In this document: positions 2,458 through 18,188 of the stretch, one piece after another | Layout: every line of letters begins with the position of its first letter | Numbering within the stretch: position 1 is the first letter of the stretch | NCBI RefSeq assembly: GCF_014647375.1 | Contig: NZ_BMPB01000005.1 | Location: forward strand, 186,001-250,000 | Direction: 5' to 3' | DNA: 64,000 nucleotides | Source of the DNA: Parabacteroides faecis | Lineage (GTDB): Bacteria > Bacteroidota > Bacteroidia > Bacteroidales > Tannerellaceae | Program-made: the position numbers and the translations under genes | The notes under the pieces: generated by a model | Database searches by the model: none | Told to the model about the DNA's origin: nothing | Seen by the model: the letters and a program-made list of their open reading frames with translations, nothing else

Positions 2458-3930
2458 ATGTCAAACATCACTAGAAGATCATTTCTTCAAAGAGGAGCAG
2501 CTGCTGCAGCTGCATTGACCATTGTACCGGGTTCTGTTTTAGGAAAAAGTCATGGATATGTGGCTCCTACAGATAAATTGAATATTGCCGCTGTCGGTAT
2601 CGGTGGTATGGGCCATGCCAATATTAATAATGTAAAAGGAACTGAAAACATCGTTGCGCTTTGTGACGTGGATTGGAAATATGCGAAAGGCGTATTTGGG
2701 GAACATCCGAATGCAAAAAAATATTGGGACTATCGCAAGATGTACGATGAGATGGGTAAATCTATCGATGCCGTTATTATTGCTACAGCCGACCATACAC
2801 ACGCTATGATTACAGGAGATGCGATGACATTGGGCAAGCATGTTTATTGTCAGAAACCGTTGACACACTCTGTGTACGAATCTCGTTTGTTAACTAAGCT
2901 GGCTGCTTCTACAAATGTGGCAACTCAGATGGGTAACCAAGGTTCTTCTTCCGAAGATACTGATTTGGTTTGCGAATGGATTTGGAATGGCGAAATCGGT
3001 GATATCACAAAGGTAGAATGTGCAACTGACCGTCCTATCTGGCCGCAAGGTTTGAATACTCCGGATAAAGCAGATAAGATTCCTTCTACATTGAACTGGG
3101 ATCTGTTTACCGGTCCTGCAGAATTGAAACCTTTCAATAACATTTATCATCCTTGGAACTGGCGCGGATGGTGGGCTTATGGTACAGGTGCATTGGGCGA
3201 TATGGCTTGTCATATTATGCACACTCCGTTTAAGGCTTTGAAATTAGGATATCCAACAAGCGTTGAAGCATCTTCTACTCTGTTGCTCCGCGATTGTGCT
3301 CCTAATGCACAGCATGTGAAATTTATTTTCCCTGCTCGTGAAAATATGCCGAAATTGGCTCTGCCGGAAGTTGAAATTCATTGGTATGACGGTGGTATGA
3401 TGCCGAACCGTCCGGAAGGTTTCCCGGAAGGAAAAGAATTAATGGGGCCTGGTGGCGGTCTGACTATTTTCCACGGTACGAAAGATACATTGATTTGTGG
3501 TTGCTACGGACAGCAGCCGTTCTTGTTGTCAGGTCGCGTTCCTAATGCTCCTAAAGTATGTCGTCGTGTAAACGGACATGAAATGGACTGGGTACGTGCT
3601 TGTAAAGAAAATCCATCCAGCCGTGTACAAACAAAGTCTAATTTCTCGGAAGCCGGTCCGTTCAACGAAATGATCGTGATGGGCGTATTGGCTGTTCGTT
3701 TACAGAGTCTGAACAGAACATTGAAATGGGATGGCAATAATATGCAATTCACGAACATTGGTGATAATGAGATGATAAAGACTTGTATCAAAGATGGTTT
3801 CACTATCAAGGATGGTCATCCTTCATTTGCAAAAGACTGGACAGATCCTGTTAATGCAAAACAGTTTGCAGCAGAACTGATCAAGCATAACTATCGCGAT
3901 GGATGGAAATTGCCTGATATGCCTAGATAA
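2458..3930 (+). CDS. Exported Gfo/Idh/MocA-family oxidoreductase
   Basis: 490 aa. A twin-arginine signal (RRSFLQ, residues 6-11, then an Ala-rich h-region) suggests Tat export with cofactor already bound. The Rossmann motif GIGGMG is at about 47-52 and the family's EKP signature appears as QKP at about 132-134. The family oxidises or reduces sugars and inositols with NAD(P); the substrate cannot be told from sequence. The next gene, 21 nt downstream, encodes a DUF1080 (3-keto-disaccharide hydrolase) lipoprotein. This pairing fits periplasmic 3-keto-glycoside processing, in which a dehydrogenase makes a 3-keto sugar that DUF1080 enzymes cleave. That pathway role is inference. Confidence 0.9.
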   Translation: MSNITRRSFLQRGAAAAAALTIVPGSVLGKSHGYVAPTDKLNIAAVGIGGMGHANINNVKGTENIVALCDVDWKYAKGVFGEHPNAKKYWDYRKMYDEMGKSIDAVIIATADHTHAMITGDAMTLGKHVYCQKPLTHSVYESRLLTKLAASTNVATQMGNQGSSSEDTDLVCEWIWNGEIGDITKVECATDRPIWPQGLNTPDKADKIPSTLNWDLFTGPAELKPFNNIYHPWNWRGWWAYGTGALGDMACHIMHTPFKALKLGYPTSVEASSTLLLRDCAPNAQHVKFIFPARENMPKLALPEVEIHWYDGGMMPNRPEGFPEGKELMGPGGGLTIFHGTKDTLICGCYGQQPFLLSGRVPNAPKVCRRVNGHEMDWVRACKENPSSRVQTKSNFSEAGPFNEMIVMGVLAVRLQSLNRTLKWDGNNMQFTNIGDNEMIKTCIKDGFTIKDGHPSFAKDWTDPVNAKQFAAELIKHNYRDGWKLPDMPR

Positions 3931-10686: not shown

Positions 10687-11454
10687 TTATTTTACTTCCC
10701 ATTCCTTACATTTCTCCATCCACTCGTAATCTGTTACATCGAGTTTACAGGGAACCAGCGAAGCATATCCGCTATCGAGTGCCAGCATATCGTTATCTGA
10801 ATGGATCGGTTTGGCATTCTCAAAAGAACCTGTCAACCAAAATACCGGTTTGCCTGCTCCGTCCTCCGAACGCTTATACTCCTTAACCCACTTTCCGGCA
10901 GCCTGACGGCATATCTTCATACCTTTTACTGTCTCTACTTTCGGCACATTCAGATTCAGATAAGTCCCGGCAGGCAATCCTTCTTTTAGTACACGGCGGG
11001 CTACCATACGTCCCAGGCGACAGCATTCTGTGAAATCTGCATCCGGATGATGGTCGAGCAGTGAGACACCCATCGAAGGTACACCGAATACACAGCCTTC
11101 GGCGGCAGCCCCCATGGTTCCTGAATAAAGAACGGCTATTGCCATATTTCCTCCGTGATTAATACCGGAAACAAGCAGATCCGGTTTACGGTCGAGTACT
11201 TCATTAATGGACAGTTTTACACAATCCACCGGTGTTCCCGTACATTTATATATTGTCAGTCCTTTTTCTTTTTTCACCAGACTGTATTTGATCGGATTCT
11301 CAGATGTAATCGCACTACTCATACCCGAACGTGGGCCGTCAGGAGCAAATACAACCAGATCTCCCAGGTCTCTCAGGCATTCTGTCAACTCTTTGATACC
11401 TTTGGCATCTACGCCATCGTCATTTGTAATCAGGATAAGCGGTCTATCGTTCAT
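10687..11454 (-). CDS. surE: 5'/3'-nucleotidase SurE
   Basis: 255 aa. Metal-dependent nucleoside monophosphate phosphatase. The metal-binding N-D-D motif is at residues 11-13 ([14 protein letters not shown]), a [11 protein letters not shown] loop at about 40-50, and [10 protein letters not shown] near residue 95; all are diagnostic. It is first in an operon with lpxB. A -7 element lies 27 nt before the ATG. Confidence 0.96.
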
Positions 11455-11488: not shown

Positions 11489-12210
11489 ACGATAATCTTT
11501 TGACGGAGGATGCTTTTAATTTTTTCTTAACGTTCTTCCGGGTTGTTTGTCTTTTATGTCTTTTCATGCAGAGAAGTCTGGTTGTTTCAGGAATTATGTA
11601 GGGGGCCGTTTATCTTCTTTTGTTTGACTTATGGGAGGAGTAAGTTCTCCTTTCGGAGACTCAAGGGGAGAGCTTTGCTAATCTAAACAATTAACTCTAA
11701 TATATTATATCTGTAATATATTCTTTTCTAAAAAGTAAGCTATACATTACATATTAGAATACAATACTTTACTTTTAAGTAAGGCATGGCTTACATATAT
11801 ATAGCATAGGAAAAATATATTAAATTCTTGGTTTTGATGGATTATTTCTCTTAGAGAAATTTCTTGGTGTATTAGATGTTGTTGAAACAGATTTCCCTGT
11901 GTAGACAATTATGGAAAAATAACTTGATGAAGTTGTTTTATATAGTTGGTTTTGTCGTTAATGGGTTGATTAATAAGTTATAATGTTGTTGCTTGAAAAA
12001 AGATGCTACTGATTTGCGTTATCTTTTGATTATAATTGGATGTTTTTGAAGGAAGTATAAAATGAAAGTAGGAGCTTCTGGTGGCGGAGGTGGTTGAAAT
12101 CCAGGGATATACTGTTTATTTATATTAATGTACGCATGTACATTAATATATTTGATCGATATTGTTCTTTAATTGAGTGAGTAAATTATAGCTTAAATAA
12201 AGTGAAATGT
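11489..12210. other. AT-rich intergenic stretch without recognisable gene
   Basis: Very AT-rich, with no credible ORF on either strand. It contains many TATA/ATAT runs around 11700-11830 and a perfect AT-rich hairpin at 12121-12150. It precedes the invertible-promoter-like element and probably serves as regulatory spacer for the large surface gene downstream, or carries an unrecognised leader or small RNA. Confidence 0.5.
12121..12150. repeat. Perfect 13-bp hairpin
   Basis: TATATTAATGTAC - GCAT - GTACATTAATATA. It is a symmetrical AT-rich dyad 60 bp outside the left arm of the invertible element. There is no GC-rich stem or T-tract, so an operator or recombination accessory site is as likely as a terminator. 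Confidence 0.6.
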
Positions 12211-12408
12211 ATGACTAGCTAAAACGATCGTTTTTTCTCGTCAACAAAAGTAAGCATTTGTTTGATTTCGGCAATTCTTTTTCGATTATTTTTTTCAACC
12301 TTATGTTCTTTCTTATCAATTGAATAGCATCGTTTGTATGAATCTCCCGTTTTAAGGGACGAACCCTCCAAGTCATGACGAGAAAAAACGATCGATTAAT
12401 TTAGTCAT
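12211..12408. promoter_or_regulatory. Putative invertible promoter element (phase switch) of the 12490 gene
   Basis: Arms 12211-12243 and 12376-12408 are inverted copies of each other (29 of 33 identical). They share a perfect 19-bp core at 12225-12243 and 12376-12394, and flank 132 bp. The core holds AAACGATCGT, close to the inverted-repeat consensus I recall for Mpi-type switched promoters of Bacteroides. The enclosed segment has a good promoter only on the minus strand (12245-12275), so the sequenced phase looks OFF for the gene at 12490. No invertase gene lies in this window. Confidence 0.72.
12245..12275 (-). promoter_or_regulatory. Promoter inside the invertible segment, pointing left
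   Basis: Minus strand: ATTG (12272-12275), 19 nt, TACTTTTG (12245-12252). This is a perfect TAnnTTTG with a one-mismatch -33 at exact spacing. It fires out through the left arm, away from the surface-protein gene. After inversion it would read into it with a leader of about 100 nt. Confidence 0.68.
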
Positions 12409-12489
12409 AGGACAAGAAGTGTTTTTTGATAGCGATCGTGTTGAATAAGAACTTATTACACTTTAGTATTAATATTAAATTTTAGAATT

Positions 12490-15400
12490 ATGAACAAAAA
12501 GTTTTCTACTCTGGTAGGATGCTTGGCTTTGGGAACGTTGTTTTCGGCAAATGCAACAGTACAAGATGCTTATCGTACATTTGCAACAACTTCCGTATCC
12601 AAAACATCTACAGGTAATGCTGGTCTATCTGCTTTGACTGGTGGTGCAACATTCAATGGGGCTGCTTGGTCGCAGGATGTTTACCATATCCAAGACAATC
12701 TTCTTTATCAATTACAGGTAACTGCCGGTGACAATATTCAGGATGATGGTACAGACCCTTATGTATTGATTCAGGAAAGAAATTACGAAACAGGTAAGAT
12801 CTATCTGAAAGCAGTTAAATCCAGTGAAGCTCCTCTGAATGCTTCTTTGTGGACAATCAAGTATGACAAACAAGATGGTGTAAGCGGTGGTAAATTTACT
12901 TATGTAAATAAAGAAACCGGTTTCGCTTTGACGTTTGATCATGATCGTGCTGCAAAAACTGTTGGTACAGCTGCAAATGCTAAAGCAACAGCTGCTGTAG
13001 AAATGAATGGTTGTACTGACAACTGGTCATGGTATACAGTAAACAGCAATACTGTTGCTTTTACTTATTCTCCTGTGTTCTCTTATCTTCATAATCAGGC
13101 GAATAATCAGGTGATGTGTTTGGTTGTTGCTGATGATGCAACAGTAACCGCTGATTTGGCTGCTAATGGTATGAATAAGACAGGTGTTCTGTTAACTTCA
13201 GCTGTATATGATTCAAATGTAGCAGGTCCGTCAATGGGTAATATCCCTACTATTGCAGTAAATCTTAAGCCAGTGGTTGCTAACCCGATCATCATGACTG
13301 CAAACGATTTGAATGCTCGTATGGATGCTGATTTCCATGCAACTAACTTCGAATTTTTGATTAATCCGAATACTTTGGAAGGAACAACCCCTTTCACTGG
13401 ATCATTCGTTGCTGAAGAAAATGCTTTAAGCTTGCCGACAGCGATGGGTATCGATAAGAAATTTAATTTGAACTTCAAGCTTGGAAATGGTTATCTGTTG
13501 GCAGATACAGCTCGTTACCAGGAAGAGAACTATGCTCCTTCGGTTTCTCCTTCTGTTAAGTTTGCCGTAAAGACTCCGGTTGCTGCAGATAATGATTATA
13601 TGAAGGCTCGTTACTACTTCAAAGCGACTTATTTCCCGACAAACGACAGCTTGCTGATTGAACCGTTGAATGCTGCTGTTCAGGATGATGATGAATTCAA
13701 TGCTAAAGATGCATGGAAAGATTCAAAAGCTTGTACTTCATACTTCCAGAACGATTATACCGTATCAAATACGTTTACTAATCTAAAACCGTATGCTGGT
13801 TCAACAACAGTTTCTTTGACTGCTGCAACAATTCCGGGTCAGACAAATCCGGTGTTGACAGTTGCTAAAGACAACCGTGATGAATTTAAGGTAAAGACAT
13901 CTGTTGTACGTCCGTTCGATTATCTGACTCGTGGTACAGTTGCTGATGGCTTGTATTTCATCAATCTGTATACAACTAAATCTTCTGTAGAACGTGCCAA
14001 CGGTATGTATATCGTTGAAAACATGGAAGGTAACATGATGTATGACAACCAGGCTATGGATCAGGACTTCTCTTTGATGCCTGCTACACAGTGGGTTGTT
14101 GAACAGTTGGATTGCAACGATGCTTCAAGCGTAGCACGTCGTGTGAAGATTCACAACCGTGAATATGCTGATCAGGTATTTGAAGGTCAGTTATATAATA
14201 TGGGTACTACTGCTGCTGGTCAAACAATCTACCGCTTTATCGACCGTACTTATGTAGGTGGAAATGATAACAAGGGTATGTTCAATAACCAGAATCTGGG
14301 TGTTCAGGATTCTATCATCTTCACTGCAGTAACTTCTCCGATCGCTAAAACAGCTTACCACGGATACAAGAAGTTCACCGTTGACGAACTGAGCAATGGT
14401 ATTGAAAACAACTATACTATCAAGTATTATCATTTCAATAACGATAATCTGTATTTGCAGAGTGAAGTAGGTAAAATCTCTAAAGCTGAAGAAGCTACAG
14501 ATCCTACAATCTACGAAATCGCTGAAGCAACATTGCCTAACAATGGTGGTGCTATTGTAAACAATTTTGGTTATTCGTTGACAGGTTATCAGGATTTGGA
14601 AAGAACAGCTTATGTTCTGAAACTGAAAGATGCTAATTTATTAGACAACGATAAGAAGTATATTGCATTGGTTAAAAATACACAGGATAACAACTATTAT
14701 TACGAAGCAGTTAAGAAAGCTGATATCGATGGTGTAAACGCTAAATGGGCTTACTTCTATCTGAAAGCAGATCAGGTTCGTTCTGATGCTAACAATGCAG
14801 TAACTGATACTTGTTATGTATTGGTAGACATTCAGAATACCAATGGTGTATTAGAAACTTCTAATGGTTGGAATAAGGCTAATGTTGTAGATGGTCTGGG
14901 TACATTACGTTTCTCAAGCCTGAACGACAATCCTGAAGATCGTGCTTCTGCATTCTATTTCCAGCATAAGATACGTCCGCAGTATATCGATATGACTGCT
15001 GATTATGACATGCCGATGAACAATGTAGTGAAGATCTACAGAAAGAGCGGTAATGCAAATGAATATCTGTTTGAAGATAGCGGTGACAGTAAGAACGTGA
15101 GCGCTTCTCAGCCGATCGCCGATGTTAACTTCCTGGGTATTGAAAGTAAGGGCGTTTCAACTGACGCAGCTGCTATGTATGTTGACAAAGTTCTGTCTTC
15201 TAATAAATTTATGCCTCAGTATCTGTTTGCTGTTGATGTTGATTCTATTCCTGACGGATTCTTGTGCGGAAGTAAAACTCATGGTTATTGGGAAACTGAA
15301 GCTGAAGCAAAAGCAGCTGATGACAATCATTATGTAGCTTACAATGGTTACCTGGCAGGTCGTTTCTTAGTTAATTATACTGATTCTGTTCAGCCTAATA

Positions 15401-16137
15401 ATAATGTAATGACTGATGCTGATAAATTCAAGTTCGAAAATTACACTCGCTTAGGATTTGTAGAAGGTGTTCATCAGGTGACAACTGATGCTAACGGTAA
15501 TATTACTGCTGAAACTCTTTATATCCTGAAGAACGGTAAGACTTTAGCAGATGTTACAACTATCGTTAATAATTCGGAAACAGGAACAAAAGTAATTGAT
15601 TTCGATTTGCTTCGTGCTAATTCTGTGGCAAATGTACTTGACGGTGCTCATAAGAACTATGCATTCTCTCTGAGAAAGATCAATGACCAGGCTGATGAAA
15701 CTGCTGATGCAAGTGAAGGCTTCCTTCTGGAATCTAATGGTCAGGGTTCTGCTATCGGTTCATTCGCAGGTGCTTGGGTGAAAGTTCATAACGGTATTCC
15801 TGTATTGGCTCAGATTACACCGACAGGTGATCATGAAGACATTTCAGCTTCTATCAACGAAGTAATCAACCAGTCTCAGGTATTCCACTTCGGTCAGACA
15901 GACGAAACTCCGACAGAAAACGAAGGTGTTAAAACTACCGAAGTATCTGTATCTGTAATTCCTGGTGCTGTTGTAGTGAAGGGAGCTGAAGGTAAGACTG
16001 TTGCTATCAGCAATGTTCTTGGTCAAACCATTGCTAACACAGTAATCACTTCCAGTGAAACTACAATCTCTGTTCCTTCAGGTATTGTATTCGTAGCTGT
16101 AGAAGGTGAAAGTGCTGTTAAAGCAGTTATCAAATAA
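12490..16137 (+). CDS. Large secreted surface protein with DUF6383-like C-terminus
   Basis: 1215 aa. Signal peptide MNKKFSTLVGCLALGTLFSANA, cut before TVQD. The long body is rich in Asn, Asp, Ala and Thr with no enzyme motif that I recognise. The last ~65 residues (TEVSVSVIPGAVVVKG ... GKTVAISNVLGQTIANTV ... VKAVIK) form a small beta-sandwich like DUF6383 or a type IX secretion sorting tail. Codon use is strongly biased to a few codons, suggesting high expression. Size, secretion signal and the putative invertible promoter upstream recall the phase-variable S-layer glycoprotein family described in Parabacteroides distasonis; that identity is inference. It stands alone and ends at hairpins at 16170 and 16299. 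Confidence 0.8.
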   Translation: MNKKFSTLVGCLALGTLFSANATVQDAYRTFATTSVSKTSTGNAGLSALTGGATFNGAAWSQDVYHIQDNLLYQLQVTAGDNIQDDGTDPYVLIQERNYETGKIYLKAVKSSEAPLNASLWTIKYDKQDGVSGGKFTYVNKETGFALTFDHDRAAKTVGTAANAKATAAVEMNGCTDNWSWYTVNSNTVAFTYSPVFSYLHNQANNQVMCLVVADDATVTADLAANGMNKTGVLLTSAVYDSNVAGPSMGNIPTIAVNLKPVVANPIIMTANDLNARMDADFHATNFEFLINPNTLEGTTPFTGSFVAEENALSLPTAMGIDKKFNLNFKLGNGYLLADTARYQEENYAPSVSPSVKFAVKTPVAADNDYMKARYYFKATYFPTNDSLLIEPLNAAVQDDDEFNAKDAWKDSKACTSYFQNDYTVSNTFTNLKPYAGSTTVSLTAATIPGQTNPVLTVAKDNRDEFKVKTSVVRPFDYLTRGTVADGLYFINLYTTKSSVERANGMYIVENMEGNMMYDNQAMDQDFSLMPATQWVVEQLDCNDASSVARRVKIHNREYADQVFEGQLYNMGTTAAGQTIYRFIDRTYVGGNDNKGMFNNQNLGVQDSIIFTAVTSPIAKTAYHGYKKFTVDELSNGIENNYTIKYYHFNNDNLYLQSEVGKISKAEEATDPTIYEIAEATLPNNGGAIVNNFGYSLTGYQDLERTAYVLKLKDANLLDNDKKYIALVKNTQDNNYYYEAVKKADIDGVNAKWAYFYLKADQVRSDANNAVTDTCYVLVDIQNTNGVLETSNGWNKANVVDGLGTLRFSSLNDNPEDRASAFYFQHKIRPQYIDMTADYDMPMNNVVKIYRKSGNANEYLFEDSGDSKNVSASQPIADVNFLGIESKGVSTDAAAMYVDKVLSSNKFMPQYLFAVDVDSIPDGFLCGSKTHGYWETEAEAKAADDNHYVAYNGYLAGRFLVNYTDSVQPNNNVMTDADKFKFENYTRLGFVEGVHQVTTDANGNITAETLYILKNGKTLADVTTIVNNSETGTKVIDFDLLRANSVANVLDGAHKNYAFSLRKINDQADETADASEGFLLESNGQGSAIGSFAGAWVKVHNGIPVLAQITPTGDHEDISASINEVINQSQVFHFGQTDETPTENEGVKTTEVSVSVIPGAVVVKGAEGKTVAISNVLGQTIANTVITSSETTISVPSGIVFVAVEGESAVKAVIK

Positions 16138-16530: not shown

Positions 16531-17295
16531 ATGGGAAAGATTATCGCTTTAGCAAATCAGAAAGGTGGAGTTGGTAAGACAACGACCACGATTAATCTGG
16601 CTGCATCCCTCGCTGCACTCGAAAAGAAAGTGCTTGTTGTTGATGCGGACCCGCAGGCAAATGCCTCCTCCGGACTGGGTGTGGATATTCGGAATGTCGA
16701 GTTGTCTATCTATGAATGCCTGGTGAATGGTGAGGATGCCAAAGGAGCCATTATCCCTACCGAGGTAGAAGGACTGGATATTATCCCGTCACATATCGAC
16801 CTGGTTGGTGCGGAGATTGAAATGCTGAACATGGAGAACCGTGAACAAATTCTGAAACAGATTCTCGTTCCCCTCAAGGATATGTACGATTTTATCCTGA
16901 TTGACTGTTCTCCTTCTCTGGGGCTGATCACAGTAAATGCCCTTACTGCAGCCGATTCGGTCATGATCCCCGTTCAATGCGAGTATTTTGCACTGGAAGG
17001 TATCAGTAAACTGTTGAATACGATAAAGATTATTAAATCGAAGCTGAATCCGGCTTTGGAAATCGAGGGATTCTTGCTGACGATGTACGATTCGCGCCTT
17101 CGTCTGGCCAACCAGATATACGAAGAGGTGAAACGTCCGTTCCGCGATCTCGTTTTTACAACCGTTATCCAGCGTAATGTGAAACTGAGCGAAGCCTCCA
17201 GCTACGGTAAACCGGTCTTACTTTACGATGCCGAATCGAAAGGAGCGCTTAACCATATGCAGTTGGCACAGGAGCTGATAGACAAAAACAAATAA
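16531..17295 (+). CDS. parA: Chromosome partitioning ATPase ParA/Soj
   Basis: 254 aa. The deviant Walker A motif KGGVGKTT is at residues 11-18, the switch DADPQAN near 41, and the Walker B region FILIDCSPSLG near 117; all mark a chromosomal ParA. It forms ATP-dependent gradients on the nucleoid that separate ParB-bound origin regions. parB starts 8 nt after its stop. Length and context are typical of a chromosomal rather than plasmid system. Confidence 0.96.
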   Translation: MGKIIALANQKGGVGKTTTTINLAASLAALEKKVLVVDADPQANASSGLGVDIRNVELSIYECLVNGEDAKGAIIPTEVEGLDIIPSHIDLVGAEIEMLNMENREQILKQILVPLKDMYDFILIDCSPSLGLITVNALTAADSVMIPVQCEYFALEGISKLLNTIKIIKSKLNPALEIEGFLLTMYDSRLRLANQIYEEVKRPFRDLVFTTVIQRNVKLSEASSYGKPVLLYDAESKGALNHMQLAQELIDKNK

Positions 17296-17303
17296 GTAGA
17301 ATT

Positions 17304-18188
17304 ATGGCAGTAATGAAAAGATCGGCACTTGGCCGTGGATTGGATGCTTTGATCACGATGGACGATCTGAAGACAGGTGGTTCGTCTTCTATCAGCGAGA
17401 TAGAATTGAGCAAGATTCAACCCAATCCGGAGCAACCCCGTTCTATATTTGAGGAAGAAGCACTGGAAGAACTGGCGACTTCTATTCGTTCCCTGGGTGT
17501 TATCCAGCCGATAACCCTGAAAGAGATGGGACCGGAGAAGTACATGATCATCTCCGGTGAACGCCGCTATCGTGCCTCCCTGATGGCAGGTCTGGAGCAG
17601 ATCCCTGCCTATATCAAGACAGCCGCCGACGAGAATGTAGTCGAGATGGCGCTGATCGAAAATATACAGCGTGAAGACCTTAACTCGATAGAAATTGCGT
17701 TGGCCTATCAGAAGCTGATAGATAGTTATGGTCTGACCCAGGAAAAACTCAGCGAACGGGTAGGAAAGAAGCGGGCGACTATCGCCAATTACCTTCGCCT
17801 ACTGAAGTTACCGGCTGAGATACAAATGGGGTTGAAAGACAAAAAGATAGATATGGGACATGCACGTGCCCTGCTACCGGTAGAAGATCCGGAAGTGCAG
17901 CTGGCATTGTATGAACAGATACTGGCAGAAGGACTTTCCGTTCGTAATGTGGAAGAGATCGTCCGTAACGGGGCGGAGGCTGTAACTCCGGAAAAGAAGG
18001 AGAAGGCAGCAGGACGCAAGCAGATGCTTCCCGAAGAATTTAATCTGCTGAAAGATCATTTGTCCCGGTTCTTTAATACAAAAGTACAACTGGCATGCAA
18101 CGAGAAGGGGAAAGGACGTATCACGATTCCTTTTACCTCGGAAGAAGAATTGGAAAGACTGATCGGTCTGTTGGATAAATTGAAATAA
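17304..18188 (+). CDS. parB: Chromosome partitioning protein ParB
   Basis: 294 aa. N-terminal RSALGRGLDALI; the CTPase/clamp domain with GERRYRAS near residue 80 and ENIQREDLNSIE near 115; a helix-turn-helix (TQEKLSERVGKKRATIANYLRLLKLP) near 145-170; and a C-terminal dimerisation part. It binds parS sites and loads SMC. Operon with parA and the downstream DUF5683 and transglycosylase genes. Confidence 0.96.
   Translation: MAVMKRSALGRGLDALITMDDLKTGGSSSISEIELSKIQPNPEQPRSIFEEEALEELATSIRSLGVIQPITLKEMGPEKYMIISGERRYRASLMAGLEQIPAYIKTAADENVVEMALIENIQREDLNSIEIALAYQKLIDSYGLTQEKLSERVGKKRATIANYLRLLKLPAEIQMGLKDKKIDMGHARALLPVEDPEVQLALYEQILAEGLSVRNVEEIVRNGAEAVTPEKKEKAAGRKQMLPEEFNLLKDHLSRFFNTKVQLACNEKGKGRITIPFTSEEELERLIGLLDKLK

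Follow-up and report, generated by a model that had tools for sequence, protein, structure and literature searches.

Parabacteroides distasonis reportedly carries a phase-variable S-layer/glycoprotein family (Fletcher et al. 2007, PNAS). One account of this species describes promoter inversion upstream of an S-layer glycoprotein (PMC8400631), and in Bacteroides fragilis many promoter inversions are placed under one global invertase (PMC12632263). Phase-variable S-layer/OmpA loci of B. thetaiotaomicron carry the repeats CCGTTACCTABVRAGTAAC beside site-specific integrases (PMC12118408). TfsA/TfsB carry T9SS-type C-terminal domains (PMC4175972), and DUF6383 is called a putative T9SS targeting domain (PMC9722745).

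The window analysed here, a 64,000-nucleotide stretch of the Parabacteroides faecis genome, contains a promoter-bearing segment between inverted repeats upstream of a 1215-aa surface protein gene (Table 1). This is very probably a site-specific invertible promoter that a small serine invertase flips, with the gene at 12490 OFF as sequenced. The switch points to a possible route by which a gut commensal could alter its protein coat.

Table 1. Features of the switch locus in the window, and the candidate invertase gene elsewhere in the genome
Feature	Coordinates	Strand	Description
surE	10687..11454	-	Left neighbour, synteny anchor; on the side that the promoter faces in the sequenced phase
Distal arm	12212..12243	.	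32-bp dyad, TGACTAGCTAAAACG-AT-CGTTTTTTCTCGTCA
Invertible segment	12244..12375	.	132 bp; inverted at the G038 syntenic locus, direct in G013/G009/G022
Promoter within segment	12245..12274	-	TTG at 12272-12274, 19-nt spacer, -7 box TACTTTTG at 12245-12252; directed away from the 12490 gene
Gene-proximal arm	12376..12407	.	32-bp dyad, TGACGAGAAAAAACG-AT-CGATTAATTTAGTCA
Conserved 5' leader	12408..12489	+	82 bp, arm to start codon; 82-89% identical at four sister loci
Surface protein gene	12490..16137	+	1215 aa; N-terminus MNKKFSTL..., DUF6383 C-terminus at residues 1141-1214
parA-parB	16531..18188	+	Right neighbours, synteny anchor
Serine invertase candidate	G000:C13:214213-214815		200 aa

The window switch and its syntenic counterparts

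An inverted-repeat search of the window returned arms at 12210-12243 and 12376-12409, 34 nt long, 88% complementary and separated by 132 nt, within which fall both the 33-bp arms and the 19-bp perfect core TGACGAGAAAAAACGATCG reported in the first-pass annotation. Each arm is laid out as two 15-bp half-sites (consensus CGTTTTTTCTAGTCA) with a 2-bp core between them; the window core, AT, is palindromic, so that inversion rather than deletion is not dictated by the core alone. The exact 22-base arm pattern had 0 matches in IMG/VR, and phage-borne copies therefore show no sign at this exact-pattern stringency. An AT-rich near-perfect palindrome (TATATTAATGTACgcatGTACATTAATATA) lies 5' of the switch at 12121-12150 and also before an armless gene copy (L032); it was considered as a shared operator and rejected, as this form is present only at these two among 18 loci.

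The sole Bacteroides-type promoter found in the segment lies on its minus strand and points away from the 12490 gene, as had been proposed, and a scan of the plus strand of the 132 bp found none, in agreement with the earlier claim that nothing comparable faces the gene. The locus accordingly has the inverted repeats around a short promoter-bearing segment by which Bacteroidales invertible promoters are recognised. Promoter polarity suggests that the gene is OFF in the sequenced phase, and this reading draws support from the same promoter module standing fixed and gene-facing in armless paralogues and before a Tannerella gene: TTG-N19-TAnnTTTG faces the gene from 102-107 bp upstream of the ATG at the armless loci L032, L174, L186 and L204 (four genomes) and 108 bp before it at L075 of T. 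forsythia. It is mainly because of these gene-facing modules that a promoter directed toward its gene is read as ON.

The order lpxB-surE, switch, surface gene, parA-parB is kept in three sister genomes (G009, G022 and G038), and in a fourth (G013) lpxB-surE is present and the contig ends past the surface gene. Against a shuffle baseline with a mean of 51-53%, the inner segment matches that of the window in direct orientation in G013 (78%), G009 (77%) and G022 (73.5%), with 45-49% inverted in these three, whereas in G038 it matches at 79.5% inverted and 50% direct. The gene-side leader is direct in all four sister loci, at the identities given in Table 1, and the far flank retains 60-68%. At one syntenic locus, then, both orientations of the segment are found within the same pair of arms, a comparison between species, and one of the four sister loci stands in the ON arrangement, its segment being inverted and its leader direct. 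The first-pass annotation had called the locus an invertible switch and had suggested looking in related genomes for the 132-bp segment inverted between intact arms; one of the four, G038, has it, which bears the call out.

Should the arms instead be a relic, with flipping lost in this strain and the gene permanently silent, the single orientation in this genome would be expected, as would the degenerate outer half of the gene-proximal arm, which differs from the half-site set applied at 3 positions. However, the inner halves and cores of both arms are intact, the inverted state is present in a sister species and the gene still has a complete 1215-codon open frame, so that we consider this explanation highly improbable. 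For the functional switch, the proposed sequence of events begins with the pairing of the two dyad sites by a small serine invertase, for which the 200-aa enzyme encoded on contig C13 is the likeliest candidate; strand exchange at the 2-bp cores would then invert the 132-bp segment. In the sequenced phase the promoter would read away from the S-layer-type gene and leave it OFF; in the inverted phase, judging from polarity, the -7 box would abut the gene-proximal arm, and transcripts would pass through that arm and the 82-bp leader before reaching the gene.

The protein encoded behind the switch ends in DUF6383 (family search, E=2e-24), and its N-terminus, judged by eye, resembles a signal peptide; a large secreted surface protein gene thus lies behind the switch, as in the phase-variable S-layer glycoproteins of Parabacteroides. 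Alignment reveals a C-terminal domain common to the window protein and the Tannerella loci L075, L084 and L090, a relationship of the TfsA/TfsB type, and two adjacent T. forsythia genes (L075 and L090), which from their adjacency and sizes look like tfsA/tfsB, end in sequence closely similar to that of the window protein. The description of the gene as S-layer-like is supported by the DUF6383 C-terminus and by these adjacent Tannerella genes sharing that end. Searches of the 1215-aa protein gave 0 PDB matches up to E=1 and 0 NCBIfam families, and the O-glycosylation motifs D(S/T)(A/I/L/V/M/T) are not enriched in it (5, against 5.3 in shuffles). When the window gene (12490-16137) is compared with its counterparts at this site in G013, G009, G022 and G038, locus and switch are the same and the coding bodies are strongly diverged: the window protein can be aligned with the other four only over the last 259-400 residues, at 30-32%, and the four share 34-74% among themselves over longer stretches. 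It is as if the coding part at this site were exchanged or evolving very fast.

Sites and candidate invertase across the genome

A 20-bp arm core, searched with up to three mismatches through all 6.66 Mb of the genome, had 62 matches; its reversed pattern had 0, and the arms are therefore not due to chance. In total, 24 arm pairs were counted, 23 from a scan plus that of the window. The scan covered stretches around earlier search matches, ignored the core and printed 25 pairs, of which two, spurious calls in L042 that share one poor site at 3869, with 8 mismatches, and have non-complementary cores, were removed; a single weak site in L038 was left out of the counts. Reverse-complementary 2-bp cores are a requirement of serine invertases with a 2-bp crossover. 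The 24 pairs all have half-sites around a 2-bp core, as expected of serine-invertase sites, and the cores of every pair are reverse-complementary (AT/AT in 9, TT/AA in 9, GT/AC in 3, AA/TT in 2 and TC/GA in 1).

Half of the pairs (12 of 24) precede DUF6383-type surface genes, one of them, L036, only a remnant gene. This locus (L036:4117-4613, from G000:C5:163616) holds a complete OFF-oriented switch before a short piece of DUF6383 gene. The other 12 pairs adjoin different genes. The family search covered ten of these, placing capsule or glycan genes at L028, L029, L040, L043 and L046, sigma-factor genes at L037 and L041, a TonB-receptor-type gene at L027, DUF3575 at L039 and an NHL/TIG protein at L050; L047 and L048 are known by open frames alone. 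When promoters at these 12 pairs were read as a -7 box with TTTG 18-22 nt upstream, 7 pointed away from the assigned gene (L027, L028, L029, L039, L040, L043 and L047), the gene of L028 being assigned by homology to L040 and a second gene lying on its promoter-facing side, and 4 gave no readable direction (L037, L041, L048 and L050). The only one of the 12 read as gene-facing, L046:4455-4636 (from G000:C13:233954), precedes a capsule-type gene, and the other four capsule or glycan switches (L028, L029, L040 and L043) are read as directed away.

Matches to serine recombinases number 4 in the genome and those to tyrosine recombinases 23, of which 22 lie above the cut-off. The solved structures closest to the 200-aa C13 protein are two DNA-invertases (best E=5.7e-14), followed by resolvases. 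A lone dyad, TGACGATAAAAAACG-TT-GGTTTTTACTAATCA, begins 89 bp before the start codon of its gene; it has 4 mismatches to the half-site set, was equalled in 0 of 200 shuffles and is identical in G000 (the window genome), G009, G013 and G038. Across 30 invertase orthologue loci, this strong site was found in 4 and a weaker one in the same place at L214, L222 and L220 (with 2, 6 and 10 of 200 shuffles as good, respectively), while L229 has a different good match (0/200). Most remaining loci were indistinguishable from shuffles by the window-type half-site, and the middle of the promoter block is still alignable in many of the 16 orthologue loci that were aligned. Such a site in its own promoter suggests that the C13 invertase may regulate its own expression. 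A small open frame on contig C12 begins about 70 bp past the end of a near-perfect arm site for which no partner was found (L044:2687-2718 in G000); this site may be a further single-site target for the enzyme.

On this sequence-based evidence, the C13 enzyme is the most likely agent to flip the window segment. Throughout the genus, the invertase is detected at E<=1e-20 in 35 of 39 genomes, lower matches possibly being other serine recombinases, and window-type half-sites occur in 18 of the 39, with five or more in 10 (reversed control, 0-5 per genome). As the enzyme is nearly genus-wide and the arm sequence variable, co-occurrence across the 39 genomes does not prove a match between enzyme and site. 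A different recombinase, of the serine or the tyrosine type, might act here, given the three further serine and 23 tyrosine-recombinase matches in the genome and the tyrosine recombinases reported beside capsule loci of P. distasonis in the available part of PMC8400631. Half-sites around a 2-bp core, complementary in 24 pairs, nevertheless fit serine enzymes, and an arm-like site stands in the promoter of the C13 gene, in a scan that among the serine recombinases covered this gene and its orthologues; we therefore regard a different enzyme as rather unlikely.

Orientation and armless copies of DUF6383-type genes

In the window genome, the promoter points away from the gene in all 12 DUF6383-type pairs. 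At the window locus this orientation could belong to a two-way switch, in which the sequenced state drives surE-lpxB and what is OFF for the surface gene is ON for its neighbour. These genes are on the minus strand, in the direction of the promoter and about 790 bp off. A scan for terminator-like sites in the interval found none, an observation of little weight with only 0.5 expected by chance. Over the 12 DUF6383-type switches, however, the nearest long frame on the far side runs with the promoter in 8 and in the opposite direction in the other 4 (the ambiguous L036 being scored as opposite), which is no general rule of these switches, and a two-way function appears improbable.

Orientation was also read in a locus-by-locus survey of DUF6383 matches, comprising all 16 of G000, the strongest 27 of 38 in G009 and the strongest 24 of 31 in G038. 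Arm pairs are present at 49 of the 67 loci, with the promoter directed away from the gene in 48 (11 in G000, 20 in G009 and 17 in G038) and toward it in 1, the G038 orthologue of the window switch. Three further loci, one per genome, are armless with the module facing the gene (L032, L174 and L186), and 15 are without the module. A script-based classification of 83 loci, which accepted only complementary cores and genes with an identifiable MNKK start and missed some loci readable individually, returned 59 with a pair and promoter away, 2 with a pair and promoter toward (L169 and L093), 3 with a pair and undecided, 15 without a pair and toward, and 4 without a pair and away. The arm sequence differs in other clades. 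A motif-free inverted-repeat test was given 33 loci and returned 26 rows, equivalent to 23 distinct loci, the other 7 lacking a readable start, a marker or a long enough upstream stretch; it found 8 away and 1 toward (L157) with repeats, and 0 away and 14 toward without, the best scores of these 14 being equal to or within one of those of shuffles. Since assemblies give the majority orientation, this OFF bias concerns the consensus and not rates.

The armless copy occupies one conserved locus in G000, G009, G013 and G038. In G004, G005, G018, G024 and G036 it precedes parA-parB, the right neighbours of the window gene, and in G001, G012 and G014 it lies in a third context. The G036 copy (L251, G036:C11:159000-178000) is gene-facing and stands between lpxB-surE and parA-parB, the exact site of the window; lpxB-surE was not found within the stretches fetched from G004, G005, G018 and G024. 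The site that is switchable in the window is therefore fixed in at least one relative, and it has switched between fixed and switchable states.

A second class of DUF6383 genes (L070, L082 and L171 in G009; L183 and L194 in G038) has no arm pair; here the promoter is fixed and lies about 407-412 nt upstream of the ATG. Its leader of roughly 400 nt shows 88% mean column identity; Rfam gave no match for the leaders of L171, L183 and L194, and in the predicted fold 8 of 123 pairs are changed on both sides. It is a candidate structured leader.

With 48 of 49 armed loci OFF and one armless gene-facing copy per genome, the arrangement is suggestive of a default coat backed by silent reserves. Tentatively, and with somewhat more reservation than confidence, we propose one always-on armless S-layer-type gene at a clade-specific locus, together with 10-20 invertible paralogues that share its promoter module, are nearly all OFF and have coding bodies that differ widely even at one locus, and a single serine invertase, checked by the lone site in its own promoter, that would set the rate at which they are sampled. 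A default coat with silent reserves would bear on phage resistance and antibody recognition in a common gut genus.

Relation to described systems

For the armless default copy, the OFF bias and the lone site before the invertase, no description was found among the titles and abstract openings of a literature search whose coverage excluded most subscription papers, which makes this weak evidence of novelty. The window switch itself is of an already known kind, S-layer promoter inversion and multi-promoter invertases both being described. The phase-variable family of P. distasonis belongs to the same genus, and in both cases promoter inversion takes place before surface (glyco)proteins. As with the Mpi-controlled capsule promoters of B. 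fragilis, many loci here share one site type; unlike them, half of the 24 pairs are at DUF6383-type surface genes and the rest at capsule-type, sigma-factor and other genes. The label "Mpi-type" would suit the window arms only insofar as they are sites of the serine-invertase type. In contrast to the window, the T. forsythia locus L075 has the module fixed and facing its gene, with no window-type arm pair found there. At the S-layer/OmpA loci of B. thetaiotaomicron, S-layer promoters are flanked by inverted repeats as they are here, but the sequence of the site is different.
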